DNA from: Rhyacophila brunnea
Lineage: Eukaryota > Arthropoda > Insecta > Trichoptera > Rhyacophilidae
DNA length: 64,000 bases
Direction of reading: 5' to 3'
NCBI GenBank assembly: GCA_022495005.1
Contig: JAGYXB010001610.1
Span: forward strand, 170,108-234,107
A program made the position numbers and the translations under genes. Shown one piece after another: positions 5,938 through 63,698 of the stretch (position 1 is the first letter of the stretch; each line of letters opens with the position of its first letter). Under the pieces are notes generated by a model. The model did not search any database, was not told where the DNA came from, and was given only the letters and a program-made list of their open reading frames with translations.

Positions 5938-6635
5938 TTATAATTAACTATTTATTTTATTCACAAGATTTAAGAATGTACCATTTTAATTATTGAACAT
6001 ACATCATTTTGAAAAACACTTTTAGATTTAGATTAGATTTAGATCTACACAAAAAATAGAGGTAATGCACGGACGGGGCGCGTAAACCCAGGAGATGCAG
6101 GGCTCGATTCCCTGCGGGGTGGCTTACTTTTTTCAAAAAAGATTTTTTCTATTGGTTAAAATATATTTTCTCAGAAAGTGTTTTTCAAAATTATGTATGT
6201 TTAATAATAAGAATGGTACATTCTTAAATATTCTGAATTATTCGTTTAATAAAAGAAATAGTTAATTATAAATTATTAGCTAGTTCAAGTAAGTTACATC
6301 ATAAAAATATTGGAGAAATCCACGACGTCGATTAGTAATTGAAGTAATAGGTATCTACTTTGATTTAATAAGCAAAAACCGATTGCCAAAGTAGCTTGAT
6401 TTAGAAGAACGATGATGAGAGGTTATTAAAAAGGCCAATAGTTAAAATTTGTTGCAATTAGTACGTCACCTTGTAGCATAGAGGTAATGCACTGACGGGG
6501 CGTAAACCCAGGAGATGCAGGGTTCGATGCCCTGCCGGGGTGGCCTACTTTTTTCAAAAAAGATTTTTTCTATTACTTATAATATATTTTCACAGAAAGT
6601 GTTTTTCAAAATTATGTATGTTCACAAGGAGTTGT
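5938..6635 (+). mobile_element. tRNA-headed SINE family A, dimer with inverted 5' module
   Basis: Two tRNA-like heads lie in tandem. The second (about 6470-6545) has an A box TAGCATAGAGG and a B box GGTTCGATGCC, and the first (6052-6122) keeps GGCTCGATTCC. Both run into the same body with TTTTTTCAAAAAAGATTTTT. Bases 5938-6023 are the reverse complement of the tail at about 6180-6260, so the first unit is bounded by TAATTAACTATTT and AAATAGTTAATTA. It is not a tRNA gene: there is no cloverleaf 3' acceptor and the body is repeated elsewhere. Confidence 0.75.
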
Positions 6636-6945
6636 TTGGATATAACAAAGTATAGCTGGTATAATAACTTGTTTGTAAGTATACGCGTCAATGAACAGGA
6701 AAAGTTTTAACGGACGTAATGTGTAATGAAATCGACAGCTAAGAGAGTGGGATGCCCATGGTTTTATATTGGTAATAAAATGTTAGTAAATCTTTGAAAT
6801 GACAAGCATTTTTTTGGAATGTGTTCGAAGAATATAGAAGAAAAATATTTCGAGTATGTGTAAAAAATAATTTTCTTCTGTTGACAGATCAAAAAGTAAT
6901 GAGTATTTTTTCAAGGACGAAGTATTTGTCACGATTGTTACACAA

Positions 6946-7835
6946 TCTTATTTGGTGACCCGAAATCAATTTGCATCAATGGTATGGAAATCCTCCAGGA
7001 TAGGATACATGAGCTTCTAAATGAAAGCTGCAAAGTAGGTTTAAAGATAATAAAGTTGTTATTATATTGAGATGCACGTAGCGTACTGTGACGCTGTCGC
7101 GGCGACAAATTGAGTCTATGGTTTCGTCATTTTGCAAAATAGTTTGAACGATCCTCGGTAAATTCAATGATGGAGAGTGCCAACTCTAATGAATTAGTAT
7201 TTTGAATTATTATTCATTATTCATGCTAATTTCAATTATTTCAGTTTCTACGTGTGCGTACGTTAAAATTACTTGCTATATTTTGAACAGAACCCAACCT
7301 GCAGATCGTAGATAATAGACAACATTCTTATATAAAATACATGGTGCCAACCGCTAAAAATAAAAAAACACGCGATTTTAACATGAGTCAAAAATGTATT
7401 AGCATGTAGAAAATGATAAAAAACATTCGTTGAGTCATAGAGGTATTGATGCAATGCAGTACAACGTGAGGTGACCTCATTGTTGTTCTGGTGATTTCGG
7501 CAGATTTTGTTAACTGAAAATGTTGGTTTAAAGATTCAAAATGTGCTACGTGATGGGAGCATCAGTCTGATAACATTTTTAACACAAAAAACGACATTAC
7601 CTACACACTTTTTTTCTCGTAGCGGTAGCTTACTGTGACGTCACGTGATAGTACTCAACATGCATCTTAATATAATCACAACTTTAATGTCTTGAAGACA
7701 AAAGTCATGATAAACTGTTTGGTAACCCAAAAGTGATCTTCGTCAATGATATGTAGATAAATCGTCAGGGCCAAAAATCTTACAAGACTGGATGGATGAG
7801 TTTCCAAATGAAAGCTGCAAAGTAGGTGTACCTAA
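6946..7835 (+). repeat. repeat family D, interrupted by TTAA element E
   Basis: The pieces 6946-7053 and 7684-7835 match a continuous stretch at 33975-34142 (CTAAATGAAAGCTGCAAAGT ... AATGTCTTGAAGACAAAA). A second GGTGACCC...GCTGCAAAGTAGG unit recurs inside it, so D itself contains a direct repeat about 775 bp apart. Its function and class are unknown. Confidence 0.65.
7054..7683. mobile_element. TTAA-type DNA element E inserted in repeat D
   Basis: Terminal inverted repeats AGTTGTTATTATATTGAGAT and the inverse of TCTTAATATAATCACAACT bound a 630-bp noncoding segment. TTAA follows the right end; the left has TAA, one base short. The paralogue at 34030-34045 shows the unoccupied GATAATTAATGTC site. 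TTAA specificity is the hallmark of piggyBac; no transposase is present, so class is inferred from the site only. Confidence 0.7.
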
Positions 7836-7875
7836 TTCAAAGTAAAAAAAAAAACTAATAATACCCTGCATTGAT

Positions 7876-8120
7876 TATCTTCATTAATGGTATTAAAATC
7901 GGACGGGTCTATAGTTACACTAGACGATATTTATATTTGGCCACGTATATTTTCCTCCACTCCAATATACTCCATGGTGAAAACAACTATTTGATTAAAT
8001 GCTATACGAACACATGTTTCAAAGACAACTGCTCACGAAGAAGCGTCTTACGGTCAATTCTATACGTACACATTTCCAGACATCCGCCAAACCAGTTAAA
8101 TTACAATAACTGGTCACTTA
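7876..8120. repeat. foldback family F, partial copy
   Basis: Contains ATATACTCCATGGTGAAA, TGATTAAATGCTATACGAAC and CTTACGGTCAATTCTATACG, matching one arm of the hairpin elements at 36150-36545 and 59735-60150. The opposite arm is degraded or missing. Confidence 0.55.
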
Positions 8121-8714
8121 TGACACCGAAACTGATAATCGGTTGACGGAATTCCATCGATGGAGGGTTAGTGTCGAGTTGGAAACACCTTGGACATCCA
8201 AAACTGAAGGGAAGCAGCTTTAAATAGACCTGCAAAATGGCAAATATTATAGGTCCGCATAAAGTTGTGGCACCAGGAAGAAGAAGATGAAGATATTTAC
8301 AAAAAATACAGATGTTGTTTTTATTCAAATCCTTACCCAGTTTACAAAGCATAAACAAAAACACAGGTGTTGTATTTCGTGTCCGCATACAGAACTGTTA
8401 TATATTATATTATATATTTGAATATACTCATACATATGTCCAATACGTATCTACATATAAAACAGTTCTATCTTAATATGATTCTTTCAAGTTGGTAGGT
8501 GGCAGCTGAAACGGTGAAATTATTCTTTCTGTCTGTGAAATTTGCCCTATACTAGGTAAGCATTCCATGGACAGCAAACATTTAAATTCAATTCTGACAA
8601 ATAAATACATTAAACATTTTTTTATTTTCTAATGTAAGTTGTATGACCTTTCGATGACAAAAATAGTAATAGAATTTGCATGTTCGGTAATTTCACGAAG
8701 AGAAATTCTGATGA
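8121..8714. other. mostly unassigned; possible LINE tail
   Basis: 8200-8300 ends in GGCACCAGGAAGAAGAAGATG, resembling the 3' ends of RTE-like LINEs, but the upstream frame is not recognisable. The rest is unassigned AT-rich DNA. Confidence 0.3.
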
Positions 8715-9195
8715 AAGAATAATTACAAGATAAAAAGAACTTTTTATATACTTACAACGTTTTTAAATTTTCTGTTGAATTATTATGCTCAATATGCTCA
8801 AACTTGTACTTGATATGAAGTAAATAAAAAAACAAACAAATATAGAATGCTGAAATGTCATTTTGATTTCCATAGTAACGCACGTATATATTAATAATTT
8901 AGTTGCTAGGACGACCCAGTTAGCAACCAATAATAGTGGATTGGATTATGGATTTCTTCCGAAATAACTTTTCATACAAAACAGAATTAACTGAAAATGA
9001 ATTCAATTCTACTCAAAGATGGCTAAAAGTATTAAAAAATGCATTGGCATCGTGTTCTGATATATTTTAAAAGTTTCAAATGTCTAGCTAGTCGGGAAGT
9101 TAGTTAAAAATCGATTGCAAGATTTGTACTGGATAAACAACCACCGGACAAATAAGAATACGAGCTACGAAAAACGTTGTAAAAATTGATTAGTT
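8715..9195 (-). repeat. repeat family H, copy 1
   Basis: About 480 bp matching four other copies in this window. Ends read AATTACAAGATAAAAAGAAC on one side and AACGTTGTAAAA on the other. Inside are a short hairpin GAAATGTCA/TGACATTTC variant, TTGGTTGCTA blocks, and GAATTCAATTCT. No coding potential or target duplication was found, so the class is open. Copies 1 and 2 lie in opposite orientation 440 bp apart. Confidence 0.75.
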
Positions 9196-9635
9196 CGATT
9201 CACAAATGGCAGAAAAGTAGGTACTAAAAGTACAGAATTGAATTCATACAAAATGATAAAAACGGGTAAACCGTTTGATTGAGAGCAGTAGTTATAGTAT
9301 GTATTACCTGTGCCAGGTTTGGAAAACTTAGGAGATTACACAACGGAAACTCCCTACCGGAAACAAGTCAATAATATCAAGATTTAAAGAGTTCTCCTTT
9401 AGATCGCGTATATGCCAATAAATAATATACATAAGAGTCAGATAAAGCTAGTATAGATGGTATTCATATTACTACAAGTGATTGTCTATTAACATTTTCT
9501 CATATCTTTCAAAGTTTTTTCATATTTAATTATATTATTTAATAGAATATTATAATTTTATTAAATAGTTATTATATTAGCATGTTCAATATCCAGGCAC
9601 TCAAGCACCGCAGTAAATTAAATAGTATCTATTTT
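9196..9635. other. spacer between inverted H copies
   Basis: Unassigned AT-rich sequence separating the two inverted family H copies. Together they could form a large stem-loop. Confidence 0.4.
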
Positions 9636-10115
9636 TTACCACGTTTTTATTAGCTCGTATTCTTGTTTGTTCGGTACAGATTTTTTCTTGTTTGTCCAAG
9701 ATTTTTAAGTAACTTCCCGACTAGCTAGACATTTGACACTTTTAGAATATATCAGAACACAACGACAATGCATTCTTTTAATACTTTTGGCAATCTTTAA
9801 GCAGAATTGAATTCCTTTTCAGTTGATTCTGTTTTGTATGTTTTGGAAAAAAATCGTTAAAAGTAATATTTACTACTTACTATTATTGGTTCCTAAGTGG
9901 GTCCTAGCAACAAAAATTTTAATATATACGTGTGTTTCTATGGAAATCAATATGAAATGTCAAAATGACATTTCTGTATTCTATAATATTTATTCAGTAT
10001 TTCTATCAAGTACAAGAAAAAGTTTTTATTAATACATAGAATTGTCAAGTTTATATGATTCAATAGAAAATTTAAAAACGTGGTATATAAAAAGTTCTTT
10101 TTTATCTTGTAATTA
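9636..10115 (+). repeat. repeat family H, copy 2
   Basis: Inverse orientation to copy 1. It starts ACCACGTTTTTATTAGCTCG and ends near TTTATCTTGTAATTATT. The hairpin GAAATGTCAAAATGACATTT is intact at about 9953-9973. It lacks the TTTATTTACTTCATAT segment present in copies 1, 4 and 5. Confidence 0.75.
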
Positions 10116-10660
10116 TTTTTTATTTATTTCTAATTTAACCATAATTACCCAACAATACTAATTTTTATTAATCTTGTTTGTTATATTTAAGCGCATGCGG
10201 CATTTATAAAATAAATACTTTAATATAATATATTACAAGTTATAGATAGCAAACATTTATATGATAAGATGGCAAATTCCATTGAACAGTTTGTCAGGCG
10301 ATGCGATATATGAAATATGAATTTTCTCAAAAATGTTTATAATTCCTGAGTTATGTAATTGTACCTATGCTTCCATACATGTGGAAAACTGGAAGCCCTA
10401 CGTATCTATAGCGAATTCACTCGTATTGTTTTATTCATGCTTTTCCGTAGGAGGGTGAAGTCGGATTTGAAAGTAAAACCTCGTGGAAAATTTGAGTATT
10501 TTTTAAACACAATATTTTGTTTGCCATTTCAATATTATGTAGATTTAGAAAATGGATTAATTCATCGTGTCTTTGAAAAATAATGTATTTTTTACATACA
10601 TCGCCTACCACACACTCACAGATTTTTAGATGAATACCGTGCCGTAGAACCGACAACACA
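10116..10660. other. no recognisable feature
   Basis: Overlapping small frames occur on both strands (for example 10359-10583), none with a recognisable motif. I see no gene here. Confidence 0.4.
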
Positions 10661-10668
10661 AACATGGA

Positions 10669-11472
10669 CAGTGGCGCACTCAGGATTTAATATTGGGGGG
10701 AGCACAAGGAGGAGAATGTAAATTTGACCCATAAGCTCTTTTTCTTCTTCACAGCCTAATTTCTCGTTTATCGGTCTTTTATCTATTGCACTCGTTGTAC
10801 CTACACCATGGTCCCCATATCCTGAAACGGGCCATCAAGCTAGGATATTTGGTGGTCCCCCTACCTACCGCTAAGATTAAAGGTTAAATTAACACTACAT
10901 TAACGTTTTTCAAACAGTGTTTTAGTTCAAATTAAGGGTACTTACACAGTGACTTATCGGTGATTTTTAATACATCTACTTTAATAATGGAGCTGTCGAG
11001 TATCGACACATAATAATCATAAATGTATTGCACAATTATACAATTGAAAGTATTCATGGCCATGAAGTATAATAGCGCCATTTTTTACTATTAAAGCTAA
11101 TTTATGATGTGTGTTTATCTCACTTATCTGGTCAACCCGACACGCCGGGCTCCCAGGCTAGAGCCCTGTCAGCCCTCCCTAGCCATGACCTACACTACTC
11201 CGGAATTTGGGTGGACACCGATTTTTTATTTTTTTAATTTCCATTTAGGATTGGGTTTCTAAAAAAACCCGACATTAGTGTTTCGAAATTTTTGTGTTAG
11301 AAATTAAAATCTAAGAAATTTTTCTATAAAGGGTGCTTTTTTGCCGTGTTTTTATTTGTCTAAGCCGAAAGGTATAGTTTATTGGCTTTCATTTTCACTG
11401 TTTAAAATCATTCTGATAATTTTCATGTTTGGGGGGTGCCAGGGTCCCTTGCCCCTCCTGGGTGTGCCACTG
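10669..11472. mobile_element. hAT-type element I with perfect 8-bp duplication
   Basis: Ends CAGTGGCGCACTCAGGA and, inverted, CAGTGGCACACCCAGGA. Flanks are AACATGGA at 10661-10668 and 11473-11480, 8 of 8. CAGTGG-type ends and 8-bp duplications define hAT elements. Without the nested element J (10807-11187 plus its duplication) it is about 415 bp and noncoding, so it is non-autonomous. Confidence 0.9.
10807..11187 (+). mobile_element. hAT-like MITE family J, copy 1 (nested in I)
   Basis: Starts CATGGTCCCCATATCC, ends CCCTAGCCATG, flanked by ACCTACAC on both sides (10799-10806, 11188-11195), 8 of 8. GC-rich ends with an AT-rich centre; no open frame. Five copies occur in this window, four of them with a duplication matching at 7 or 8 of 8 on visual reading of separate sites. 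Confidence 0.9.
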
Positions 11473-11809
11473 AACATGGACCTCAACAAACCAACCAGCC
11501 CGCACAACACTCGGTCTAAATCGAACGTATCATAAAGCCCTACGTTTGGGTGTAAAGCATCTGAAGTTGTTTACGTTAACTTTATCACCTACCTATTAAG
11601 CCAAGGATACGCAACGCAAAATTTAAAAAGTAACTTAATTATGTACTATATAATTCAGTCAATCTTGCCGTACTAGCAATATTTATAATATTAATACTAT
11701 CGACCGAAGAAACGTGATGGAATTTAAATTTCATAGATAGGTGATTAAGTTTTTAGCTACTTTATTGTATTAATTTGTTATATATTAAATTATATTGAAG
11801 TGTGGACGC

Positions 11810-12196
11810 TAAACCAAGAGATGTCACTGAGACTTGAAGCTTTCGAGATGTGGCTGTATAGGCGCATCCTCAAAATTCCTTGGACTGACCGGGTGACAAA
11901 TGTTGAAGTTCTCAATCGAATGGGGAAGGACCGAGAAGTTCTAAAGTTCTAAACCAGGAAACTATAGTACCTTGGCCACATTATGAGAGGACAAAAATAC
12001 AGCATTCCCCAACTTGTCATTCAACGAAAGATCAATGAGAAGCGTAGCAGAGGATGGCGCCGCATTTCGTGGCTTAAGAACCTCCGTGATTGGTACGAGT
12101 GCAGCTACACTGAACTGTTTCGGGTAGTAGACGACAAAGATAAGATCGCCTTGATGGTGGCCGACCTCCGCTAGGGGATTGCACAATAAGAAGAAA
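11810..12196 (+). pseudogene. RTE-like LINE reverse transcriptase C-terminal tail
   Basis: Translation gives LEAFEMWLYRRILKIPWTDR, then after a frameshift near 11945 YLGHIMRGQKYSIPQL, RGWRRISWLKNLRDW and the end DDKDKIALMVADLR before a stop at 12173. This is the standard C-terminus of insect endonuclease-reverse transcriptase LINEs (LEAFEMWxYRRxLKIPWTD ... YLGHIMR ... RISWLxNLRxW). The short 3' untranslated end GCACAATAAGAAGAAAAT fits too. A duplicated AAGTTCTAAAGTTCTAAA accompanies the frameshift. Confidence 0.85.
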
Positions 12197-13913: not shown

Positions 13914-14109
13914 TGTTTTTTTTATATAGAATTATTAATAACCATGTCCTTGCTTTTTCGTACAAGGTGGTTGTTAGTAATTTTGAACAATCACAAACGC
14001 CCAGGCTTTGAGAAAAACACATACATGTTTTTGTCATGACCGGGAATCGAACCCAGAACTCTCGGGTGGAAGGCCAGCGCCTTACCCACTGCACCACAAG
14101 AGCCACCTA
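13914..14109 (-). mobile_element. tRNA-derived SINE family B, copy 1 with 11-bp duplication
   Basis: On the minus strand the head shows A box TGGTGCAGTGGG and a perfect B box GGTTCGATTCC, in a tRNA-like context (GGCTCTTGTGGTGCAGTGGG). The opposite end is A-rich (T-run at 13914-13923). TGGTGTGGGAT at 13903-13913 is repeated at 14110-14120, an 11-bp target duplication typical of LINE-driven insertion. The body cannot complete a tRNA fold, so it is a retroposon. Confidence 0.85.
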
Positions 14110-14159
14110 TGGTGTGGGATGGGTTGTGAAAAATATATTTGGTATAGTGAAAATTTAAC

Positions 14160-15204: not shown

Positions 15205-15688
15205 TGGGGTAAATGCCAAAAGTTGGTAAGTCTCGAAATCATGTTTTGGAGTAATTGCAATTTGAAGTTTGACATGCCTTCTAAAATCAGGCATTACGCT
15301 CATTTTTTTGGGCTTTATGTGTATGTTCTATAATATATCGGATAACCTTGAATCTTTCTAAGATATATTTTTTCGACCTTGTCCGATCCTAATAGGATCA
15401 TATGAGCCTCCACAGAGTGGAGGTTTGTATTAACAGTTTTTATTGTTTACGAGAAATGGATGTCAGTCACTTGCTCAACCTATTAGGTCCATACTCTGAC
15501 TCATACACAAATTGAAAAAAAATATGTGTACTTGCCAGACCCAGGATTCGAACCTGGGACCCTTGACTCAATAGGCCGGCGTTTAAGCCACGCGGCCATC
15601 GTGGGTGGATATATATGGACACTTCATAATCCGTTATTAACTTATAATACTTAAATTATCGACTTACCAACTTTTGGCAGCAGCCCCA
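15205..15688. mobile_element. element family M, copy 1, split by SINE C
   Basis: Inverted ends GCCAAAAGTTGGTAAGTC and GACTTACCAACTTTTGGC flank the segment. The second copy at 27885-28790 has the same ends. Both copies have been hit by later insertions: SINE C here, a LINE tail there. No transposase or duplication seen. Confidence 0.7.
15369..15607 (-). mobile_element. tRNA-derived SINE family C, copy 2 (nested in M)
   Basis: Reverse-oriented full copy: the 3' end GATCCTAATAGGATC lies at about 15383 and the head with GGATTCGAACCTGG, CGTTTAAGCCACGCGGCC near 15545-15600. GATATAT at 15362-15368 and 15608-15614 is a probable 7-bp duplication, with a T-run next to the left one as expected for a 3' A-tail. 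Confidence 0.8.
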
Positions 15689-17225: not shown

Positions 17226-17284
17226 AATATAAATATATTATATAATATAATAATACCTGAGGTATTTTGTGTATTTAAATTATG

Positions 17285-17356
17285 TATATTCAATTAAGAA
17301 TGTTTCCTACATTCTCAAATTTTGTGAATTATTCGTTGAATAAAATAAAAATAGTT
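17285..17356 (+). repeat. SINE A tail fragment
   Basis: ACATTCTCAAATTTTGTGAA followed by TTATTCGTTGAATAAAATAA matches the 3' tail of SINE A at 6220-6260 and 40745-40790. Confidence 0.6.
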
Positions 17357-17396
17357 TAATACAATATTGCTTTGTCAAAAACTATATTTACAATAA

Positions 17397-17545
17397 TATT
17401 AATACTATCAACCAAAGGAAACGCACTTGATGAAATTTGAATTTAAATTCTAATGGATTTAAATTTTGTACTATTCTATTTGAGTATCAGAGTTCACTCA
17501 AATAGAATAGTACACAAATTAAACCCATTAGAATCTATATTTACT
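17397..17545. repeat. family K hairpin copy
   Basis: Two inverted arms of about 45 bases meet at 17487-17496: ATTCTAATGGATTTAAATTT ... TATTTGAGT, and ACTCAAATAGAATAGTAC ... CCCATTAGAAT. It looks like both terminal repeats of family K joined with almost everything between them lost. Confidence 0.65.
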
Positions 17546-22176: not shown

Positions 22177-22182
22177 AATTAA

Positions 22183-22598
22183 GGGCGGACATGCTCAGCA
22201 TTGGTCAAAATGGAGCTTTTATTGTATTTTCAAAACATGATCCTGGACATTCCTTAAACGTTGTAGATAATCTATTTGAATAATTTTGAAGCCTTATTAT
22301 CCTTTATATTTATTTGCGTTTAAAAATTAATAAATGTAAAAAATCTTAACACCACTGCACAAGTATGTACTGAAATATTACTATATTCTAAAACATTAGG
22401 GCGAGAGGTTTAAAAGAAAACTATTTTATGTAGTAAAAATACTTTATGCAGTCATCAAATGTTTAAAATAAATATAAAGGATAATAAGGCTTTAAAATTA
22501 TATACATAGATTATCTACAACGTTTAAGGAATGTCCAGGATCATGCTTTTAAAATGCAATAAAAGCTCCATTTTGACCTACGCTGAGCATGTCACCCC
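22183..22598. mobile_element. TTAA foldback family Q, copy 1
   Basis: 416 bp with inverted arms of about 140 bases (GGGCGGACATGCTCAGC at the left; GCTGAGCATGTCACCCC at the right), both abutting TTAA (22179-22182, 22599-22602). Long arms, TTAA site and no gene fit a piggyBac-like foldback MITE. Confidence 0.8.
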
Positions 22599-22854
22599 TT
22601 AACAGTCCTTTAATGTTTATATTAGTTTTCTAATCAATCACATTTAATTTTTAATATTGTTATACATAAACAGTGGCTAAAAACTATGACTGTTTTATCA
22701 GCTCACACACAGAAGAGAACTGCAAGTTTTTAAATAAAATTTCATTCGCACAAAAAATATAAAAAATGATAGGAACCGTTTGTTGCTGAAAGGTAACACC
22801 ATGCAATTAAGGGTTAAACGACTAAAGGTCGAAAAAAAGGAGGAAAAAGAGATG

Positions 22855-37815: not shown

Positions 37816-37962
37816 ACATTCGAACAAGTGAAATGAATTCTCATGTCAGATCAATGCATCATATTATTTATTATGTACCTAAATCTTTATACAAACAACG
37901 GTATCATAAGAAGACGATTTCTTGGTCCTGAAATAAAGTTATTTTTAATAAACCATTTCGTT

Positions 37963-38240
37963 TATTCAACGAATAATTCACAAGATTTTGAGAACACACT
38001 AACTGGAGAATACCAGTTTTGAGTAATTTGACTTTGAAGTTGTTAAAATGTTTGAAATGGTCTATCATGTGAGTTTATTAAGTAATCGTAAAAAGGATGA
38101 CTTTAAAATAAAGACTGTTTATTTATTAAGAAGGTTTCCAGACGGTAAAGTTTGGAATAAGGAACATTTTGGTATAACTAACTCAATATGTCATTTTTTC
38201 GAATTAGTGTCTTCTGCCAGAACAGTGACGATACATATCT
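37963..38240. repeat. element V, copy 2, joined to a SINE A tail fragment
   Basis: 37963-37996 is an inverted SINE A tail (TTTATTCAACGAATAATTCA). 38000-38236 is the inverse of 51084-51346, ending TCTTCTGCCAGAACAGTGAC. The opposite terminal repeat is lost at the junction. The open frame 38048-38242 inside is conserved between the two copies but unrecognised. Confidence 0.6.
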
Positions 38241-39249: not shown

Positions 39250-39925
39250 TACTCTATTATAATAAATGGCTATATAATGTTTGAGACTTTCACGGTTGTT
39301 TTTTTTATCGTAATAGATTTTTGGGTTTCCGCTGTGTGTATTTCTTCCTTCTTTCCTCTACGTTTTAGGCTCGTTGCAGACACCGTTATCAATAGATAAG
39401 TGTTATGATGAAGTGTAGTGTTGTAGGTGTATGAATGCAAACGTCGCTCTAAGAATGTCAAAAGAAATCAGATTACCTGTGAGCAAACGTTGCTCAGAGT
39501 AACATGTCACTCGTTATGAACAGAGTTACCGGATCGAATATTGGATTTTGCTGACAGCATCAGAAACCATGACGTTTTTAACCGTAACTCATCTTTTCTA
39601 TTCATATTTTCAGGGTTTCTATGGATTTCGTCCTCTTTTACAAATCGTGAGAAATATCCCTTATTCCGACCCAGTAGCTTGGTTTCGAAGTCAAATTTGT
39701 TTCCTGTATCCATTGAGTGCTCGGCAATTGCTGACATCATGTAGTGTTTAAGTTGGTATGCCCTCTCGTGTTCACTCATACGCTTCTTTACCGTTCGAGA
39801 AGTTTGGCCTATATGCTTTTTCGGGAAACGTCGTGGAAGGAGGAGGAGGAAGAAGAAGTGCACACGGTCGAAACCCAAAAATCTATTACGATAATAAATG
39901 GCTACTCTCCACAGTGGCGGGTTTA
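39250..39925 (-). pseudogene. Penelope-like element remnant with GIY-YIG endonuclease
   Basis: Minus-strand frame 39507-39810 reads HIGQTSRTVKKRMSEHERAY, then AIAEHSMDTGNKFDFETKLL, GRNKGYFSRFVKEDEIHRNP and NRKDELRLKTSW. This is the C-terminal GIY-YIG endonuclease of Penelope-like elements: (Y)IGQT, the R and H of R-M-x-E-H, AEH, and E-I-x-x-x-P-x-N-x-N-R. The first YIG tyrosine is H. The upstream RT is missing. AAACCCAAAAATCTATTACG occurs at 39868-39888 and inverted at 39303-39325, so a terminal segment flanks the remnant in inverted orientation, as Penelope pseudo-LTRs often do. Confidence 0.8.
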
Positions 39926-40086
39926 GGGACTTTAAAATTTCCTACACAGCTGCTAATTTGGTGACAATATATTCTATTATTCTACAAATAATCAACCGAT
40001 GTGTGCTCCCCACGCTCACCTATGCATGATAAATATAGACTCTTAATGTACGAGAAATCCAAAAACTACTAGTACCGTAACGTGTC
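39926..40086. other. no recognisable feature
   Basis: Short unassigned interval. Confidence 0.4.
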
Positions 40087-40245: not shown

Positions 40246-40314
40246 CCAAAGGGCAATACAAGCAACCGGGGCAATGGGGTTTGCCCTAAACCGGTGGTTG
40301 TACGTGGCACGAAA

Positions 40315-40795
40315 ATTTTAATTAATGGCTTTTAATACTCACTGAAGCACTTTCTAAATTGAGATACATTGGTGATCGGTTACGTCATCGGCGATCAAGT
40401 AGGTAAGTTACAACAAAAAAATTTGGAGTGATCCGTGACGTCGGTTAGTAATTATTAAAGTAATACCCACTTTGATTTAAAATACAAAAGCCGATCGCCA
40501 ATGCAGCTCAATTTAGAAAGCGCTTCAGTGAGTATTAAAAGCCATTAGTTAAAATTTGTCCTAATTAAGTATGACTCCTTTAGCATTATGTTCAATGAGC
40601 GTGGGCGCGATACCCAAGAGATACAGGTTCGATCGTGCAGGGTGTCTTACTTTTTTCAAAAAGATTTTTTGGGCTTTCATTTCAATGGGTTATAATATAT
40701 TTTCTCAGAAGTGTTTTCAAAAGTATGTGTGTTCAATAATTATTAGAATGTTACATTCTTAAATCTTGTGAATTAGTCGTTGAATAAAAAAAATA
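40315..40795 (+). mobile_element. SINE family A with long inverted 5' arm
   Basis: Body from about 40395 with GTGACGTCGGTTAGTAATTA; tRNA-like head near 40570-40650 with B box AGGTTCGATCG; 3' end TTGTGAATTAGTCGTTGAAT. 40315-40380 (TTTAATACTCACTGAAGCAC) is the inverse of 40487-40550, a 65-base arm copying an internal part of the same element. Confidence 0.75.
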
Positions 40796-41237
40796 GTTAC
40801 ATAAATAACGATTTGTAGATTTGTATCGTACATCATGTGCCATCGACCACGAACAGATTCTTAATCGACTAGACAGTTTTACAACCACTCGTTTAAACTA
40901 TTCACCCTTATCTTAAATTTTATTTTAACATCATACTAAAAGAAAAGTAAAAAATTTCTTTCCCGTACTCTACAAAATATTGGGAAATGACTCACCGATT
41001 AAAACAGTTTTTTTTATCTGAAAATAAAAGTCTTCTAGAGTGATTGATTACAACCATTATTTATAAAAAATAAGCACTGAGTTGAGATGTCTGCATTAGT
41101 TTTGTTTTGTTTAAAATGTGTTGAAAAACAGTTTTTTTAGTGGAAATATTTTTTATTGTTCATTGATTAATTTTGTTCTGTCTAAACATTATAATATTAT
41201 GATTCATGTTTCGTTATTTTTTCTTCTTCTGCAGACA
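40796..41237. other. no recognisable feature
   Basis: AT-rich, unassigned. Confidence 0.45.
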
Positions 41238-43994: not shown

Positions 43995-45167
43995 TGGGAA
44001 TCCAATCCCGAGCCAAAAATTTGATCCCGGGATTTCGGGATTACAATTTGACAATCCCGGAATCCGAGACTGGTCCCGGGATTGGCATTTTTTTTCTCGA
44101 TTGGTAGTTAAAATTCATTTTTATATGTAGAAATAGCATTGATAAAATTAGTAAAAAATGTCTCGTCTAATTTGTACCTACTATTTAAGATATTTATTGT
44201 TAATATTGTGTACGTTCAATATTGTAAATACATAGCTTTAATGGAGTAAATAATGTTGTAATATATTAATGTGATAGTAAATCAGTTTTATTTATTTATT
44301 CAAGAAAAGATATCAAATACAAGTTTAATGAAAATAAAAAAAATAACATATTGTAATTAACTAATTCTTTTATTCAACGAATAATTCACAAGATTTAAGA
44401 ATGTACCATTCTGATTATTGAACATACATAATTCTGAAAAACACTTTCTGATAAAATATATTATAACCGATAGAAAAAATCTTTTTGAAAAAAGTAAGCC
44501 ACCCCGGCAATAGTTAAAATTTGTCACAATTTGTATGTCACTGCGTAGCATAGAGGTAAATGCGACGGACGGGGCATAAACCCAGGATATACAGGGTTCG
44601 ACAGTGGCTTACTTTTTTCAAAAAGATTTTTTCTATTGGTTATAATATATTTTCTCAGAAAGTGTTTTTTAAAATTATGTATGTTCAATAACATATTGTA
44701 TTGAAAATAAATACAATATAATAAAATTCACAAACGTTCTAACGATTTACGACATTCTAACAATTGCTATTCATTCGGAGATATTGTGTTAATTAATAAT
44801 AATTAAATTCAATGAGAAAATAATTAAAACATTCATTCATAAAATTTGGTGTAGAAACAAGTGCATACCTGCACGTCTATGACATCTAACTGGTTTTAAA
44901 TAAACGGATTTATTATTTTTTTTTGATATTGTTACGATTATTTATGGCAGAAAAACAAGGTTATTTATTATCCGTGAGCATCCGGTGTTTCCCCTGTGAC
45001 ATGTGACATGTGCAGGTACATACACGTCACTAACATAGTGATTTTGTACGCACGTCAAATGATTATGATTGATAAAGAAATCAAACCCGAAGTTTAGGGA
45101 TTATGCTTACTAATCCCGGGATTCACGTGTATAAAAATTGTCCGGGATCCCGGGATTGGATTCCCTA
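43995..45167. mobile_element. hAT-type element W, copy 2, split by SINE A
   Basis: Ends TGGGAATCCAATCCCG and CGGGATTGGATTCCCTA; possible duplication CCCCTGAC/CTCCCGAC (6 of 8). About 830 bp without the SINE, longer than copy 1 at 30770, so the two are different deletion derivatives. Confidence 0.8.
44356..44686 (+). mobile_element. SINE family A in W copy 2, with 14-bp duplication
   Basis: AATAACATATTGTA at 44342-44355 and 44687-44700. The first ~150 bases (from ATTAACTAATTCTTTTATTC to AAGCCACCCCGGC) are the inverse of the SINE 3' half. The rest is a direct-oriented head (A box TAGCATAGAGG, B box GGTTCGA) and body. The paralogue at 30921-30942 shows the site without the SINE. Confidence 0.85.
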
Positions 45168-45896
45168 CTCCCGACTAATTGGCGACTCAATCAAGCATTT
45201 CTGATAATTTTTAATACAGTATATTTTAGTGTTTTAGAAAAAAGCTATAGTAAGCACATCGTCATTATTAATAATGACTGCTTAAATATTATAATTTTTG
45301 TCGTAAAATTTTCTTACTATTTTTCGTGTAACCAAAATTATAATACGATTGGCAACACCGATGGAAGGCTAAAATTGCGGTTTTATTCATATTTTGATAA
45401 ACCTGTAAAAAATTTATTGAGCAATTTACTTGAGTTACTCTGCCTCAAACGATGATTATTTACGATTCATCAAATTCCAATCGGGAACTCAAACAAGTAC
45501 ACTTACAACTTTTTAATATTGAAAATGTGGCGATGAGATTCCCTTCCAGTAACTAGTCCATATACTGAAGATAATAAAAACTTATGAATTATAATAGTTT
45601 TGCCATAAACTTGGTCGTTAATAAACCCCTTTAAGTGCATTATGTATTTTAAGAGCATGGCCTTCAGTAAATAACATACCCTCGCTGGAGTAATGACAGA
45701 ATGCTCATCTCAAATTCCATAGATCAGTGGTATTCAAACCCCAGGGTGTCACATCTAATACCCACAGTAATGCAAGCTATTTAAAAAGAAATATTTCTAA
45801 TGGTTTTGAAACAAATTTATTTTTTGAATATGTATAATTTGAAAACATTTCATGCATATACACAAGAAAAAATCATTTTGTAGAAAAAAAATACTA
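45168..45896. other. no recognisable feature
   Basis: AT-rich; unassigned. Confidence 0.45.
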
Positions 45897-46330
45897 CACC
45901 CGACGGGGATTGAACCTATATCTGCTGGATCGAGCAGATAAATTATTTTTTCTAGTGTGTATATGGGTTAGGTCTGTTAATTCACTCATAGGGAAGAGGG
46001 CCAGGACAAATCGGGAGCATCTATTGTTTGTTCTTTCAAGGTGCGGAACTAACCTGCAATGTGTAATACCAATCGGGAAGGCAATTACTATGTTTAATCA
46101 AATCGCTTCAAATATTTATATATTCCACTTACGTGAAGGTTTTAAAGGTATATTCTATCAATTTAGTTCACTCTGTGTGCTTCCATGAACTTTAGTTTTT
46201 ATTATTTTATTATTGTACTATTTATTCATATTAACCTGAATTTTTCTTTGAAAATAATTGTTAACACTATTTTTTTTTATGTCATGTCGTGAACACTTTG
46301 AGTTTTATAAATTTGAATTTAAAAATTGAC
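45897..46330 (+). pseudogene. LINE family X-L related C-terminus with 3' tail
   Basis: Frame 45910-46186 ends KAITMFNQIASN(I)-IF ... GIFYQFSSLCVLP, resembling N-A-L-P-R-D-V-D-I-F of the 27945 copy in position and spacing. The 3' part has ATGTCATGTCGTGAACACTT and an A-rich end. A tRNA-like GGGGATTGAACC (minus) sits at the 5' edge. Confidence 0.5.
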
Positions 46331-47330
46331 AAATTAGTGTAGGGTGAAAGCGGTATTTTACATTTAAAAATATTATATTTCAGTACCGTGTTAACTGCAT
46401 TTTTTCCCAGAGATTTAGCATATTATAATTCGAGTGCTTAAAGTCAGACAACGTTATCTACAAAAAAGTGTTGGTTTTTTTTTTGACATAACGTTATTTT
46501 ACATTTACGGCTACATGATAGTCAAACAACGTTATGTCAATCTTTTCTAATTTCTTATTAAATCGTCAGTAAAGTTTAACGCTAACTACATAAGTTACCC
46601 TTGTTTTCATATTTTTTAAAAACTATCCCTATAAATTTTAACATCATCATAAGCAAGATAAATCTACATTACACAACAAATTATAAAATATTAACATTAG
46701 GTTTAAAATAAACATTTCCCTTGTTAAGTTACAAGAATCTAAAATAACGATTTTTGGCTCTCCTGTAAAGTTGCACTTTTGTAGATAGTGTTGTTTGACA
46801 CTATGCCCTCGAATTATTCATGATCATTAAACATATATAGTACTAGTAAATCCAAACGTTTAAACTATAATCTGCAGAGATACTGATGCCATCTAAGAAA
46901 TTATTAGTTAGTAATGTGTACAAGTTACGAAGTTACCTAGCATAAAATTTTCATTATTATTAATAACATTTGAAAACACCTTAGGTGCGTAGTTAAGAAT
47001 TTTTTGCATGGTTATTGAATATTAAAATCAGTTAGATATGCTTCTAAGGCAATTCCAAATTATGTTTTTTTCCAATAAATATAATTACATTTATTAAATT
47101 TTCTTAATTATTAAGTGTTAGATAAAAGTAAATAATTGTATAAAAATCACTATTTTTAAAAGGGATAATACTGTTTTTTATTTTTCCATTGTGCTCAACG
47201 GTTGAAATAGGTTCGAAAATTCTGATAGCTGATATCAATTATATGTTGGTATTTTTAATGAACTTTTACTTCCACACGTAAACAGTATAACAGTTGATTG
47301 TTCTGCAATAATTGGGATTACCCAATAGGC
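46331..47330. other. unassigned, with a small hairpin
   Basis: TTGACATAACGTT at 46482 and AACGTTATGTCAA at 46523 form a hairpin, with a third ACAACGTTATCT at 46447. It may be part of an old MITE. Otherwise AT-rich. Confidence 0.4.
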
Positions 47331-52959: not shown

Positions 52960-53390
52960 AATCAACCATTTCTTTTATTCAACAAATAATTTGAAATATT
53001 CAATATATAATGAAGTATGGAATATTACATACTCAAATCTTGTGAATTATTCGTTGAATAAAATAAATATTTTCTTAAATTATTAGCAAGTCTAAGTACC
53101 TATGTTATAAAAACTGAATAATGGAGTGATCCGCGACGTCGGTTAGTAATTAATGAATTAATTGATACCTACCTTATTATAGTAAAAGAGATAGCCAACA
53201 TTGTAACGAAATTGTATAAACATTTCATTTACGAACTTCTAGTTGTATCGTCGTAATTAAGTAAGATGCCAGTAGCTTAATTACAAAAGTATACTGGCGC
53301 GAATCCAGCGGTTACAGGTTTAACTTTTTTTTTCTTTTCTAAAAAAGATTTTTATCGTGGGTATGCATGAGATGTTTTCAACTTAGTATG
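52960..53390 (+). mobile_element. SINE family A with inverted 5' module, diverged
   Basis: 52965-52995 (TTTTATTCAACAAATAATTT) is the inverse of 53045-53065, then the body follows with GTGATCCGCGACGTCGGTTA and a weak tRNA-like head near 53265-53330. Poly-T tract at 53322. Confidence 0.6.
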
Positions 53391-53442
53391 TTCAATAGTA
53401 ATTTATTTATATGTATAACGATATTTGTATTTTTTTTACCAT

Positions 53443-57824: not shown

Positions 57825-58045
57825 AGCGCCGCAGGCAAAAAATCACTTAACCATGGAATCTACCATCAAATACCGTGTTCAAATAGCGCGTTTTTACTCG
57901 CGCGCATTCCAGGTACATGTGACTTCATTGAGCCGTCCACAAGCATTCGCGCCGTGACGACTGTCGTGCGCGGTCGAGGTACATGTGACCTCATTTAAGT
58001 ATCCACATGTACTCGGGCCAAATTGCGGCAAGACACGCGCTATCT
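57825..58045. repeat. GC-rich segment with direct repeats
   Basis: AGGTACATGTGACTTCATT (57911) and AGGTACATGTGACCTCATT (57979) are direct repeats about 68 bp apart. TCAAATAGCGCG and CGCGCTATCTGGA flank them in inverted orientation. Function unknown. Confidence 0.45.
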
Positions 58046-58914
58046 GGACAAAGACTTAAATGATCAATTGTTGTTATACTGCGAAAAATAGTGATATTTT
58101 CGTATAAATAAATTTAGTGTTTGGTGGAGTTCAAGTCAACTCAAAACATTCAAACTATATACGGTTGCGAATAATAACGACAATATTATTTATACACCAT
58201 GTTTATTAGGTATAGGTAGGTACTCATAATTTATGTTGAGAATGATTTTTTTCAGTGATTTCCAACTGGAGTTCTGAGGAAACCTAAAGCTCTGTGGGTA
58301 GGGATCCGCAAGAATTCTTAGAAAGTTTTTTTTCATAAAGATTTTAAATGATCTATTTTTAAACAATAAAGTTTTTAAAAATGTTGCTTGATTCGCATCA
58401 AACGGTTTATTCAAGTACACATCTGGCGAGAGTTATAAATAATATTCGAAATTTTGAGGCAACAGGAAGAAGGAATAAAAATTAAGGAACTTGGCCAGTA
58501 ATGAGTATCGAAGAGAATTAGCAGGGAACTCAGAAATAATGGAAACTGAAATACCTAACGGGTAAGGAGAAGCAGGTAACCGATCTAGAGTAAGGAAACG
58601 GGATAAATTTAAACATGTGTCAAGAATATATCATACGTCGAATACTGACAACTGCTCTCGTTTTATGCATTGGCGCTTATTTAATATTGGTGTATTACAC
58701 ACATTGCACGTCTATAATGCGTGGATTACTTTCGTAGGACACTCACACATTCAAAACCCAGCTTTAAATTTACTGTATTGGTATTTATAGCCAATCGGAA
58801 TTCTATTTATTATCTGTTCTATGGTAATCAAGGAAATGATGTTTGGTACCTTGATTCAAACCACAAAAATCAGTCGCCAATATTAGCGATATTTGTCAAG
58901 TACTTCAGTTATTT
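58046..58914. other. no recognisable feature
   Basis: AT-rich, unassigned. Confidence 0.45.
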
Positions 58915-59410
58915 ATTTATTTAGAAAAAGAGTATTACAGCACTACAGCGATAGGCCAATGCGCCATAATACATAATACATACAAAATTATAAAAATATC
59001 TTGATTACAAATAACGACTAATATAACAAGAAAGTAGAAAAGACAGCATGTGTTTATGTAGATATTAAAGAAACAGGATAATAATATATACAATTATAAA
59101 TTTAACCTATTTCACACGTCCACAAACATTATATATAGTTAATAAAATCAATCTTTTTTATTGTGCCATCAAATAAGTTAATCGCACGATACACAGCATC
59201 ATGAAACATAACATCTGTCCTGCGACGAGGTATCTTGAAAACCGTAGAGTTACGAGTGATATTGGAGGGAACATGAAAATCAATATTTGCCGGTATGTAC
59301 GGATTGTAAATGAACCCACGAAGAAGTAAAAAGAAATGCTTTAAAAGAGCAATCGCCCTTCGGATGGACAGGGATTGCATTGATAGCATACCCAGAAGAA
59401 AACGAGTCGG
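58915..59410 (-). pseudogene. LINE 3' end (RT C-terminus)
   Basis: Minus frame reads DFHVPSNITRNSTVFKIPRR, then RTDVMFHDAVYRAINLFDGT before a stop near 59129. The pattern F-x-V-P-x-x-R-T-x-x-x-x-x-x-A-V-Y-R-A-x-x-L-F resembles the end of CR1/Jockey-type reverse transcriptase proteins. The + strand starts with TTATTTATTTATTTAG, the reversed 3' tail. Confidence 0.6.
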
Positions 59411-59734
59411 GAAATTCATTTTATTATCATTATCATACGGATTATGTATGATTATTGTCGTCGTAATAAGGTAGGGCGCAAGTGGTGAAATTTGTAAAGC
59501 ATATTGGCCCGCACCCCCCATGGGTATATGCATCCATATGCAGGTTGGGGACCTGTCGGGACCATATTTTTTTCATGATATTTTTAATATTTTTTGTGTA
59601 CTTATATACTCGTATGTGTAATAGTATAGCAACTATAGTAATAATTATAATATTCTTTACGTAAAATTGTAGTTATTTTACTTGATAAAGATTACCATAT
59701 GATCGAAATACGTATCGTTTTAACAAAAAATGGC
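59411..59734. other. no recognisable feature
   Basis: Unassigned; likely flank of the LINE tail. Confidence 0.4.
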
Positions 59735-60150
59735 AACTGGTCCGTATCCGGAAATTTGTACGTAAGCAGTTCACCGCAGGACACTAATATTCATGCGCCG
59801 CATTACGTGAAACATGAGTTCGTGTAACATTTAATGAAATGACAAGTTCTTCGTTGAACATTTCACCGTGGAGTATATTTGTACGTATACTACAGCATGT
59901 GGCGAATTTTATGAGATGTCTTTACTAGGTTAGATTAGGTTAGGGTTAATCTAATTGGAACAGTACTATTTTCAAACTATCGCCGCATTTTGTAAGATAC
60001 GTACAAATGTATTCCACTGTGAAATGTTCAACGAAGAACTCGTCATTTGATAAAATGTTATACGAACTCATGTTTCACGTACTGCGGCGCATGAATAAGT
60101 GTCCCACGATGAACTACATACGTACAACTTACATGTAACCCAACTGGTCG
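59735..60150. repeat. foldback family F, copy 3
   Basis: Arms of about 145 bases (TTTGTACGTAAGCAGTTCAC to GGAGTATATTTGTACGTAT, and the inverse from ATACGTACAAATGTATTCCA) match closely. The loop carries TTAGATTAGGTTAGGGTTA. No gene. Confidence 0.85.
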
Positions 60151-60788
60151 ATATCAATACTTCGAATAGTCCGGTTTCATAACAGTACCACGAGTAGTAT
60201 GAAAAAAAAATGGAAAAAATCATTCTTCACTAAAATATCTCGAGCATTCTCGACAATATCGATAAACAAATCAACCTCATCTCAAATTTAAGGTACTTAA
60301 TAAAAAAAAATATAATTTTTCGGCGAAAGCTTGAAATTTACATTTAACGACCTCAGTAAAATTCGAATTTCTGACATGGCTGAAACAGATTGTCAAAAAA
60401 TTACCTACGAACCCGGAAAACTGTGGAGATTTTCCTCAATCGCGACATCAAAGAGTCTTCAATTTTAAACTTTTCGACCCCCATTAGGTACGCCGCTGTA
60501 AAAAGCTTCGGTCGGGACCAAAGCTCGGACAAATGCCCTCACCCTGTCACCCCCCTTCTACCTCCCACACATAATACAGAGCGACCACACTGGGAATATT
60601 TATAAACGCAGTACTTACTGCTTGCTGCGTCAAACTGCTGGGCTTGTCAAAGCATTTTATGTCACAGTTAATTACGTCATACATTGCCAAATAAACAAAT
60701 ATCGCAGAAACTTTACTGCCCTACTAAACACATATAGGGTGTCTAGAAAAAAACAGCTCCTAAATATTGTTTTATCTATCAGAGTAGG
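60151..60788. other. no recognisable feature
   Basis: A 71-codon + frame (60390-60605) lies partly in a C-rich patch (CACCCTGTCACCCCCCTTCT); it is not recognised and I do not call a gene. Confidence 0.35.
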
Positions 60789-60790
60789 TA

Positions 60791-62095
60791 CGAGGGTGGG
60801 TCAATAATTCCTTAGAAAAAAGCATTAAAACAGTTTTGATTTTTGTATTTTTTTTTTATTTCTCAACATAATCTCCTTGGAGCTCAATACACTTGGTTAG
60901 ACGTTTCTCAATATTTTTTAAACCGTCAGAAAAATAAGTTTTCGGAAAGTCCTCAAAATAAGCATTTGTCCGATCGACGACTTCTTCATTTGAAAAAAAA
61001 CGTTGCCCACTTAGCCAATTTTTTAAGTTTGGGAAAAGGAAAAAGTCACTGGGGGCTAAATCTGGCGAATACGGTGGGTGGTCGACCAATTCGAACTTCA
61101 ATTCTTCAATTTTAGCCATTGATCGTAAACATGTGTGAACACGGGCATTGTCCTGATGAAAGAGGATTTTTTTTTCCTGTTTAAATGAGGCCGTTTTTCT
61201 TCAATTTTGTTTTTTAGCTGGTCCAATAAAGATGCATAATAATCCCTTGTTATTTTTTTTCCTTTTTCCAAATAGTCAACGAAAATAATTTCACGTGCAT
61301 CCCAAAATACAGTAGCCATAACCTTACCAGCTGATTTTACGGTTTCGCCTTCTTTGGACATGGTTCGCCTTTCGCAATCCACTGCTTTGACTGTTCTTTC
61401 GTCTCGGGAGTATAGTGGGTGTATCCATGTTTCATCTACAGTCACAAAGCGACGAAAAAATTCATCCGGATTGCGTTGCATGAGCGACAACAGGGCTTTA
61501 GTGGCCACCACCCTATTGCGTTTATTGTCGACTGTGAGCAAACGCGGCACCCATCTTGCAGAAATATTTTCATGCCCAATTTGTCATGTAAAATAGAAAT
61601 GACGCTACCTTTTGAGATCCCTGTAACCTCAATTATCTCACTCAACTTTAATCTTCGGTCACTTAACACCATATCGTGGATTTAATTGATCATTTCTGGT
61701 GTAGTCACCTCTACAGGACGTCCTGAGCGTAGTTCATCCTTTGTTGATGTACGACCACGTTTAAATTCATTTAACCAGTTATAAATAGTTGCAAGTGAAG
61801 GAGCAGATATGCCGTGAACTAAATCCAACTCATTTTTTATTTCCTTTGAGGTTAACCCTTTTATATTAAAATGTTTAATAACAGCCCTAAACTCAATTTT
61901 CTCCATTTTCCATTTTTCCATTTTCCACAAGCAAATTTTTTTTTTAAATGTACGAGAAACACACAACAACCCGACCAATCTGATTGAAACTTCGCAGCAT
62001 ACTGAATCAGTAGTGCCGCTGCATGAAAACAAACCGCTTACAGTACTAGTCGCGCCACCTGTCGGCTTTTCTAAGGACTTATTGACCCACCCTCG
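60791..62095 (-). mobile_element. mariner transposon, 1305 bp, nearly full length
   Basis: Inverted repeats CGAGGGTGGGTCAATAATTC (left) and, inverted, CGAGGGTGGGTCAATAAGTC (right), about 30 bp, flanked by TA on both sides (60789-60790, 62096-62097). Size matches complete mariners (about 1.3 kb). The transposase frame runs on the minus strand. Ends look intact, so a compatible transposase might still recognise it. Confidence 0.95.
60856..61921 (-). pseudogene. mariner transposase, inactivated (DD34D)
   Basis: Start at 61921 or the in-frame ATG at 61906 (MEKIEF). Order: N-terminal helix-turn-helix with TSKEIKNELDLVHG and TIYNWLNEFKRGR; linker GRPVEV; VTVDETWIH with first D at 61434-61436; HQDNARVHT with second D at 61150-61152; YSPDLAPSDFFLF with third D at 61045-61047. 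The last two are 34 residues apart, the mariner signature. A stop at 61682, a frameshift near 61570, a shift pair over about 61350-61425 and one at the T-run near 61170 break it. It once cut and pasted the element at TA sites. Confidence 0.95.
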
Positions 62096-62097
62096 TA

Positions 62098-62360
62098 CCT
62101 AAAGTTGGGCTTGTACGAATTGTCTTGAAGCATCGGCTATGTTCAATAATCTTTCGATTCTTTATACTCAATCATTAGAATATTTTCTAATGGACGACAG
62201 AAAACTTTTCGTTGTGTTTTCATCTCAAGAAAGTGGTGTGTATGTAAGAAAAAAAATCCACACAGTTAAGTTTTTTTTAATTATCCACGATTATACATAA
62301 ACTAAAATTATAGATAGCAGAAGGCTAAGGAATTCAGTACACATCTCACCGAGCTGTGAA
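62098..62360. other. no recognisable feature
   Basis: Short AT-rich interval between two transposons. Confidence 0.45.
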
Positions 62361-62970
62361 TAGAGTTGGGTTTTGGGAATTTCCCGACGGGAATGCTCGA
62401 GAAATTTTCGAGGTTTTCCATCCCGAATCTCGAGAATTGAAATTTTTAACATTTGAGGAAATCCCGGATCTCGAAGAATCTTTTCTCGGGATTCGGAATT
62501 TCTTTATTATCAAATATTAATTGAAAAAACGATTTTCTATATGAAAAAAGTGGACAGGAAACACAAAACGTCCAAATACTGATCGTGGCATTTAAGACAA
62601 TTAAGCCAACGTCGACTCAAAATGAGCGCAATTTTTTCAACATCAAGAAATTTTGTGTCTCAAAAGCGTACGGGATTGTCAGACGCAGCGATTAACAGTC
62701 TGTGTTTTTTGAAATCCTATTTTAATATGTAATGTTTTCAATTGTTTTTGTTTTCTTACTTCTGTTATGTTTGTCTTCTTAGATAAATAAAAAAAATCAT
62801 ATTTTTTTGGAATTTGTCTGTCCTAAAAGTTTTTTTTTAATTTCCCGATATCTCAAGAATTCTCGAGAATTATTTTCTGGAAATCCCAAATCTCGAGAAT
62901 TCAAAATTTCATCATTTCGGGAAATCCCGAATCTCGAGATTGAGATTTTCTCGGGAAATACCCAACTCTA
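62361..62970 (+). mobile_element. hAT element with TAGAGTTGGG ends
   Basis: Ends TAGAGTTGGGTTTTGGGAAT and, inverted, TAGAGTTGGGTATTTCCCGA; flanks GCTGTGAA (62353-62360) and GGTGTGAA (62971-62978), 7 of 8. Sub-terminal CTCGAGA and TCCCGA motifs repeat many times near both ends. It keeps a trace of transposase. Confidence 0.9.
62609..62732 (+). pseudogene. hAT transposase dimerisation-domain vestige
   Basis: T-S-T-Q-N-E-R (62609-62629) passes by a frameshift near 62627 into IFSTSRNFVSQKRTGLSD, then AAINSLCFLKSYFNM and a TAA stop at 62730. This is the end of the hAT-C domain (T-x-x-x-S-E-R-x-F-S ... R-x-x-L-S-D ... L-C-F-L-K). About 40 residues survive of a protein of roughly 600, so the element is an internal-deletion derivative. 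Confidence 0.85.
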
Positions 62971-62978
62971 GGTGTGAA

Positions 62979-63311
62979 GAATATAAAATGGTATGACTTT
63001 ACATTTAAAATCATCGAGTATTTTATACCGTAGTAAACGTTGACTGACTGAGATAAAGTTCGGTTAGTGAACTTTTGCTAGTGGAGATCTGACAGACGTT
63101 CGTTTCGCCCGATTATATACTTAGATATATTTCTGCATTTTTGTGTAGGTACATTGTGCAAATGGCGACACATTTGAAATTATTAAAAATATAACCCGAT
63201 GCGTTTAACTTAAACAAATATTCCAACCATAATAATGCATCGGTTTATAAGTATCAACAGTGCATTGTCATGCTGTTGGCAGTCGGTACTTTACGTTTTA
63301 ACTTATTTAAC
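62979..63311. other. no recognisable feature
   Basis: AT-rich, unassigned. Confidence 0.45.
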
Positions 63312-63323
63312 ATCTTTTATTAT

Positions 63324-63698
63324 TAATTAACTATTTTTTTATTCGTTGAATAAAAAAAATAGTTAATTAAAAATTATTAGCAAGTTCAAGTAAGTTACAA
63401 GAAAAATGTCGGAGTGATCAGTGACGTCGGTTAGTAATTAAAATTATACCTACTTTGAATTTAAATACAAAAGGCGATCGCCAATAGTAGCTCAATATGG
63501 AAAGCGCTTCAATGAGTATTAAAAGCTATTAGTTTAAAATTTGTCGCAATTAAGTATAACTCCTTTAGCACAGTGGTCCATGTGTGTGGGCGCGATACCT
63601 GAGAGATGCAGGTTTGATTCCTGCGGGGTGTTTTACTTTTAAAAAAGATTTTTTCTATTGGTTATAATATATTTTCTCAGAAGTGTTTTCAAAATTAT
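63324..63698 (+). mobile_element. SINE family A, complete, with 12-bp duplication and 5' palindrome
   Basis: ATCTTTTATTAT flanks both sides (63312-63323, 63699-63710). The element begins with a 46-bp near-perfect palindrome (TAATTAACTATT ... AATAGTTAATTA), then the body with GTGACGTCGGTTAGTAATTA, a tRNA-like head (A box TAGCACAGTGG, B box GGTTTGATTCC near 63566-63630) and the 3' part TATAATATATTTTCTCAGAA. This is the best reference copy of the family here. Confidence 0.85.

Follow-up and report, generated by a model that had tools for sequence, protein, structure and literature searches.

Why should a short repeat begin, in copy after copy, with an inverted piece of itself? The question is raised by a 64,000-nucleotide (nt) stretch of DNA from the insect Rhyacophila brunnea (Trichoptera; contig JAGYXB010001610.1), hereafter the window, in which the original prediction had recognised five copies of a presumed short interspersed nuclear element (SINE), each opening with part of the element in inverted orientation. 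We placed the copies by BLAST on a reference monomer of 411 nt, a hand-made draft based on the copies in the window, which was doubled to make it circular. The inverted start was recovered in all five long copies (5938, 40313, 44354, 52960 and 63324), the worst of the five arms giving an E value of 5e-5, and each arm is followed by a direct-oriented part (Table 1). Within the copies the paired arms measure 64 nt (91%) in 5938, 67 nt (93%) in 40313 and 88 nt (95%) in 44354, and are shorter in 52960 and 63324.

A profile search of the window added three short family loci (17269-17361, 37946-38004 on the minus strand and 45819-45931 on the minus strand), and the sample therefore consists of eight loci, all inside the 64 kb. 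A weak similarity at 47053 was dropped as a family member because the profile did not report it. The aligner did not fix every position: the right ends of 44354, 52960, 63324 and 45931, both ends of 40313, the left end of 5938 and the inner points of 5938 and 63324 were placed by eye or by the border of a duplication.

In its behaviour the family is a 411-nt monomer joined tail to head, with A and B boxes at positions 196 and 243 and a tail of about 65 nt (346-411). The joint between tail and head (411 to 1) is traversed in three of the five long copies, which are thus partial tandems; the direct part of 5938 contains the tRNA-like region twice, the first time without its initial bases. The joint between body and tail (345 to 346) runs unbroken through both parts of 5938, the direct part of 40313 and the inverted arm of 44354. 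In every long copy the inverted and direct parts overlap, the same monomer positions being present in both orientations (5/5), and the tail is confined to the left outer border in four of them and to the right one in 40313.

Outer ends, inner joints and target duplications

The outer ends of the copies fall at few places. Twelve of the 13 outer ends tested lie within two zones of the monomer, 336-350 and 406-411, with a total width of 19 positions out of 411, whereas the smallest total width obtained by random placement of outer ends was 76 in 3000 simulations. The zones had been noticed beforehand, and the simulated arcs were left free to float. The eight loci have 16 outer ends, of which 13 entered the test; omitted were the left ends of 17269, 37946 and 45931 (about 321, 348/363 and 227), which are direct-oriented and were taken as 5' truncation points, and when these are counted too 12 of 16 outer ends are in the zones. 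The ten inner points, that is flips and joints, showed no clustering. Chance as the origin of the arms and ends is ruled out by the BLAST E values and by this test.

The original prediction described the inverted arms as different in every copy. This holds for the inner flip point, which is different in each of the five long copies, but not for the outer border: the left end of the inverted piece is fixed at 409-411 in four of the five and lies inside the element in 40313. The right outer end is at 336-350, likewise in four of the five. Because the outer ends are fixed while the inner joints vary, the arm is neither one fixed palindrome nor a wholly free structure.

Exact target duplications enclose the whole structure in copies 63324 and 44354 (Table 1), in agreement with the earlier claim of a clean 12-14-bp duplication around two copies, and their scores were unmatched in 600 random placements. 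At the right border of 44354, five bases after the direct part match both the element and the duplication. Among the short copies, 45931 has a duplication of its own (Table 1), the 17252 copy has a candidate 10-bp duplication with one mismatch (p about 0.11), and none was detected by the duplication test at 37946. The detected target duplications are AT-rich.

Proposed two-sided priming and rival accounts

The anatomy of the copies is most economically accounted for, we infer, by two-sided target-primed reverse transcription, in which a Penelope-type enzyme works from both sides of a staggered cut. An endonuclease would cut the two strands about 12-14 bp apart, and each exposed 3' end would prime reverse transcription near the 3' end of the element RNA, either that of the tail (about 410) or that of the body (about 345). 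The complementary DNA (cDNA) could then switch templates, leaving one RNA at its 5' end and resuming at the 3' end of the next, or keep going on a circular or tandem RNA; in either case a partial tandem would result. The two opposite cDNAs would finally be joined where they had stopped, through microhomology, through the tail hairpins or with filler. In the short copies, a folded-back cDNA end could yield hairpins of 7-8 bp.

On balance we consider it probable, if well short of certain, that the family is a tRNA-headed, non-autonomous retroelement which owes its copying to Penelope-type machinery. A narrower claim, to which we give slightly less than an even chance, is that it is a SINE in the strict sense (short, tRNA-headed and non-coding) that is copied by Penelope machinery and not by a long interspersed nuclear element (LINE), each target strand priming at one or other of two fixed 3' ends of the RNA, with the cDNAs meeting at free positions. 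Since the element is non-coding, and the window holds only a separate GIY-YIG-like fragment, the family would be at most a non-autonomous relative or client of Penelope.

It is unlikely that we are dealing instead with a LINE-dependent SINE subject to frequent snap-back, in which the first cDNA, folded at its end, primes its own back-copying and is then attached to the target by the hairpin end. The tail contains two natural hairpins, at 350-368 and 380-394, and snap-back is in keeping with the flip of 63324, which sits on the second (TTATTC-GTT-GAATAA), and that of 52960, which is near the first; the flips of 44354, 5938 and 40313 are away from both. The same two flips, together with the two clean duplications, support the earlier proposal that the inversion arose during insertion, by template switching or snap-back. 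Hairpins also stand at the 5' border of the three short loci, which are without a long arm. Those of 8 bp (45931) and 7 bp (17269) speak for snap-back, the chance of a hairpin within 10 nt of a random point being about 1.5% for 8 bp and 3-4% for 7 bp; for 6 bp it is 8%, and the hairpin of that length at 37946 does not rise above background.

The arms themselves point both ways on snap-back. The inverted arm is nearest to its own direct part in 40313 (63/69) and 44354 (84/89), and a private variant is common to both arms in 40313, as is one base at the monomer end in 5938. In 5938 and 52960, however, the nearest sequence is not the copy's own direct part; the arm of 52960 is identical to its own at 32 of 44 positions and to that of 5938 at 36 of 44. 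In 44354, 52960 and 63324 no private variant is common to the arm and the copy's own direct part. Snap-back should presumably also leave the outer end free, yet that end is at 409-411 in four of the five long copies, and the partial tandems and one-sided tail are left unexplained. By eye, moreover, the copies are without a trailing simple-repeat tail. Snap-back and two-sided priming may act together.

Quite improbable, in our view, is one fixed 5' palindrome belonging to a master element, its centre eroded by deletions and its arm length only apparently variable. Long palindromes do shrink from the centre, and the constancy of the outer end in four of the five long copies is what such a palindrome would give. 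The arms, however, do not all derive from one part of the element, and on this ground the explanation is rejected: in 44354 the arm (410 to 257) joins the direct part at 158 without passing through the tail, and in 40313 it comes from another region (172 to 104), with the tail at the right end.

We find it very hard to uphold a miniature DNA transposon with long terminal inverted repeats, some of its copies internally deleted. Inverted repeats and duplications do flank the element, and the window has many long inverted repeats (47 pairs), but the outer ends are not inverse complements of each other (left 409-411 and right 336-350 in four of the five long copies), the duplication is of inconstant length (12 and 14 bp) and there are head-to-tail joints; the inequality of the ends and the varying duplication length are our reasons for setting it aside. 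Classical single-RNA twin priming, the mechanism of the 5' inversions of L1, yields inverted and direct parts that adjoin on one RNA without overlap. It would suit the inverted piece on the 5' side and the duplications around it in two copies, but is scarcely credible because here the two parts overlap in all five long copies.

The GIY-YIG-like fragment, the tRNA-like region and other repeats

The window contains one probable Penelope-like fragment (Table 1), and its anatomy is similar to that of the family copies. It has an inverted copy of its own 3' end at its 5' end, a one-sided tail of about 36 nt (39273-39308; shorter if the bases shared with the duplication are assigned to the arm) and an exact target duplication. 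The duplication was first spotted by eye, and the duplication test, run with other ends (39301 and 39893), scored none; a pattern search found exactly two sites, against 0.14 expected with one mismatch allowed, and one of 100 shuffles did as well. Viral contigs gave no match to either of two exact patterns, 23 and 30 bases long.

Several results weigh against a copying role for Penelope machinery. Its sole link to a protein is the open reading frame (ORF) of this fragment, which resembles the end of a GIY-YIG endonuclease mainly by eye. In Pfam the ORF matched T5orf172, which we take to be a GIY-YIG relative, with an E value of 0.023, ranked under the unrelated Fn3 (E value 0.015). A protein search with the 97-residue GIY-YIG-like stretch returned no candidates, solved structures gave one match at chance level (E value 1), PHROGs gave one of unknown function (E value 0.15) and NCBIfam none. 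The 3' end of the fragment has no sequence likeness to the element, and consequently we treat the fragment as a parallel example and not as a proven partner. No Pfam match to a Penelope reverse transcriptase was obtained in the seven ORFs tested of the 16 listed with at least 110 residues. Neither the window nor closer searches of three copies gave a hammerhead match. Among the copies themselves, the duplication test detected nothing at 5938, 40313 and 52960 (three of the five long copies), and the left outer end of 40313 (about 174) is outside both zones. Finally, there are only eight loci, with several ends placed by eye.

Hammerheads occur in the terminal repeat of many Penelope elements and are frequent there, not universal. 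A relaxed pattern for the hammerhead core had eight matches in the window and none in family copies. A single-sequence structure prediction of the GIY-YIG-like stretch was poor (mean predicted local distance difference test score, 62.4).

The SINE label is justified only in part: there is a tRNA-like region, but T6 runs, which are terminators for RNA polymerase III and at which that enzyme is expected to stop, follow the B box in the monomer. The Rfam tRNA model matched 63559-63632 in copy 63324 with 23.4 bits, under the gathering score of 29 (E value 0.014 in a small region), and left the regions 5900-6650 and 40300-40820 unmatched; ARAGORN detected no tRNA anywhere in the window. The label is provisional, because the tRNA match is below threshold and in one copy, about 195 nt precede the A box, and T6 runs lie after the B box.

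The window has a G+C content of 30-37% (in 4-kb steps) and holds other repeats, among them pieces of mariner transposase. A broken mariner-type transposase at 60785-62101 on the minus strand matched Transposase_1 and DDE_3 over the cut-off and HTH_48 under it, and is bounded by 35-nt terminal inverted repeats (60785-60819 and 62067-62101; 97%). An element at 22179-22602, with inverted arms of 137 nt (92%) and 150 nt between them, resembles a miniature inverted-repeat transposon, and another inverted-repeat element at 59788-60097 has 118-nt arms (89%) and a 74-nt spacer containing GGTTAGATTAGGTTAGG. The long hairpin at 17452-17529 on the minus strand (46-nt arms, 89%) scored 45.6 bits with Rfam mir-3121, under the gathering score of 108, and is more likely to be a palindromic repeat than a microRNA gene. 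Two further tRNA-like sequences with B-box-like motifs, at 13950-14120 and 15480-15640 on the minus strand, had no BLAST match to the family.

Table 1 Coordinates in the window of the family copies, their target duplications and border hairpins, and the GIY-YIG-like fragment.
Feature	Position	Strand	Monomer positions and remarks
Copy 5938, inverted arm	5936-6026	-	411 to about 310 by eye (BLAST about 284); internal deletion of about 12 nt
Copy 5938, filler	after inverted arm, up to 6055		about 30 nt, TAGATT-like
Copy 5938, direct part	6056-6624	+	200 to 411, then 1 to 345; partial tandem
Copy 40313, inverted arm	40313-40381	-	172 to 104 (BLAST 106); then about 15-20 nt of filler
Copy 40313, direct part	40396-40803	+	about 11 to about 406; tail at right end
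Copy 44354, inverted arm	44354-44506	-	410 to 257; tail included
Copy 44354, direct part	44508-44686	+	158 to 344; tail-less
Copy 44354, target duplication	44342-44355 / 44687-44700		AATAACATATTGTA, 14 bp exact; last 2 bases of left copy also fit element
Copy 52960, inverted arm	52960-53003	-	409 to 366
Copy 52960, direct part	53019-53401	+	about 353 to 411, then 1 to about 350
Copy 63324, inverted arm	63324-63344	-	410 to about 390 by eye (BLAST 380)
Copy 63324, direct part	63339-63698	+	380 to 411, then 1 to 336; overlaps arm in shared hairpin
Copy 63324, target duplication	63312-63323 / 63699-63710		ATCTTTTATTAT, 12 bp exact
Short copy 17269	17252-17361	+	about 321 to 410
Short copy 17269, 5'-border hairpin	17252-17266		7 bp
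Short copy 37946	37946-38004	-	about 348/363 to 410
Short copy 37946, 5'-border hairpin	38001-38018		6 bp
Diverged copy 45931	45826-45942 (profile 45819-45931)	-	about 227 to about 344
Diverged copy 45931, 5'-border hairpin	45919-45940		8 bp
Diverged copy 45931, target duplication	45817-45825 / 45943-45951		TTATTTTTT, 9 bp, p about 0.007
GIY-YIG-like fragment	39273-39890 (618 bp)	-	ORF 39507-39941 (-); probable Penelope-like fragment
GIY-YIG-like fragment, target duplication	39259-39272 / 39891-39904		14 bp exact

Comparison with known elements

The original prediction knew of nothing of the kind as a recurrent feature, but the same combination has been published for Penelope elements of Adineta vaga. 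In the available portions of that paper, Pen2a and its relatives form partial tandems and carry the terminal repeat also in inverted orientation on the 5' side, the head-to-head arrangement being the commonest; a 31-bp tail is optional on one inverted repeat, and palindromes occur at the inverted junction (PMC3846280). Target duplications there are of 8, 9 and 10 bp, some copies having none, AT-rich targets are preferred, and a reverse transcriptase and an endonuclease are encoded in ORFs of about 830-840 amino acids. A curation guide, in the part of its text at hand, likewise lists tandem second copies, inverted terminal repeats and short 3' extensions for Penelope (PMC8969392). The copies in our window jointly show the partial tandem, the head-to-head inversion, the optional tail, palindromes at flips and, in some copies, the short duplications that mark these endonuclease-bearing elements. 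Unlike those of Adineta vaga, as far as the same portions describe them, the element is 411 nt long and non-coding, with a tRNA-like region and a tail of about 65 nt. For the inverted pieces of Penelope the authors of 2013 favour self-priming, on an antisense template, and ask for further experiments (PMC3846280).

Other systems share single traits with the family. In Heliconius butterflies, short nonautonomous Penelope elements without enzyme genes are reported to be prominent in some clades; they too are short and enzyme-less, and the accessible sections of the paper mention no tRNA-like head for them (PMC6685494). Retrozymes, the hammerhead-bearing elements with circular RNA (PMC4918200), are alike in that a circular RNA template would be compatible with the tandem, circularly permuted monomer, and unlike in that no hammerhead was detected in the family copies. 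With tRNA-derived SINEs that have LINE partners the family has in common a region resembling an A box and a B box, and it differs from them in the long stretch before the A box, the T6 runs after the B box and the inverted and tandem structure. A literature search, with subscription journals largely outside its scope and papers represented by partial text, listed no SINE tied to Penelope among its matches.

The usual view of SINEs is that they parasitise LINEs, a rule that would be widened, if the reading is true, by a tRNA-headed client of Penelope machinery. Penelope replication is poorly understood, and a short client whose two outer ends are fixed and whose inner joints are free would allow models to be separated by the counting of copies in one genome. 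If the reading is true, the small size of the element shows the Penelope insertion reaction plainly.

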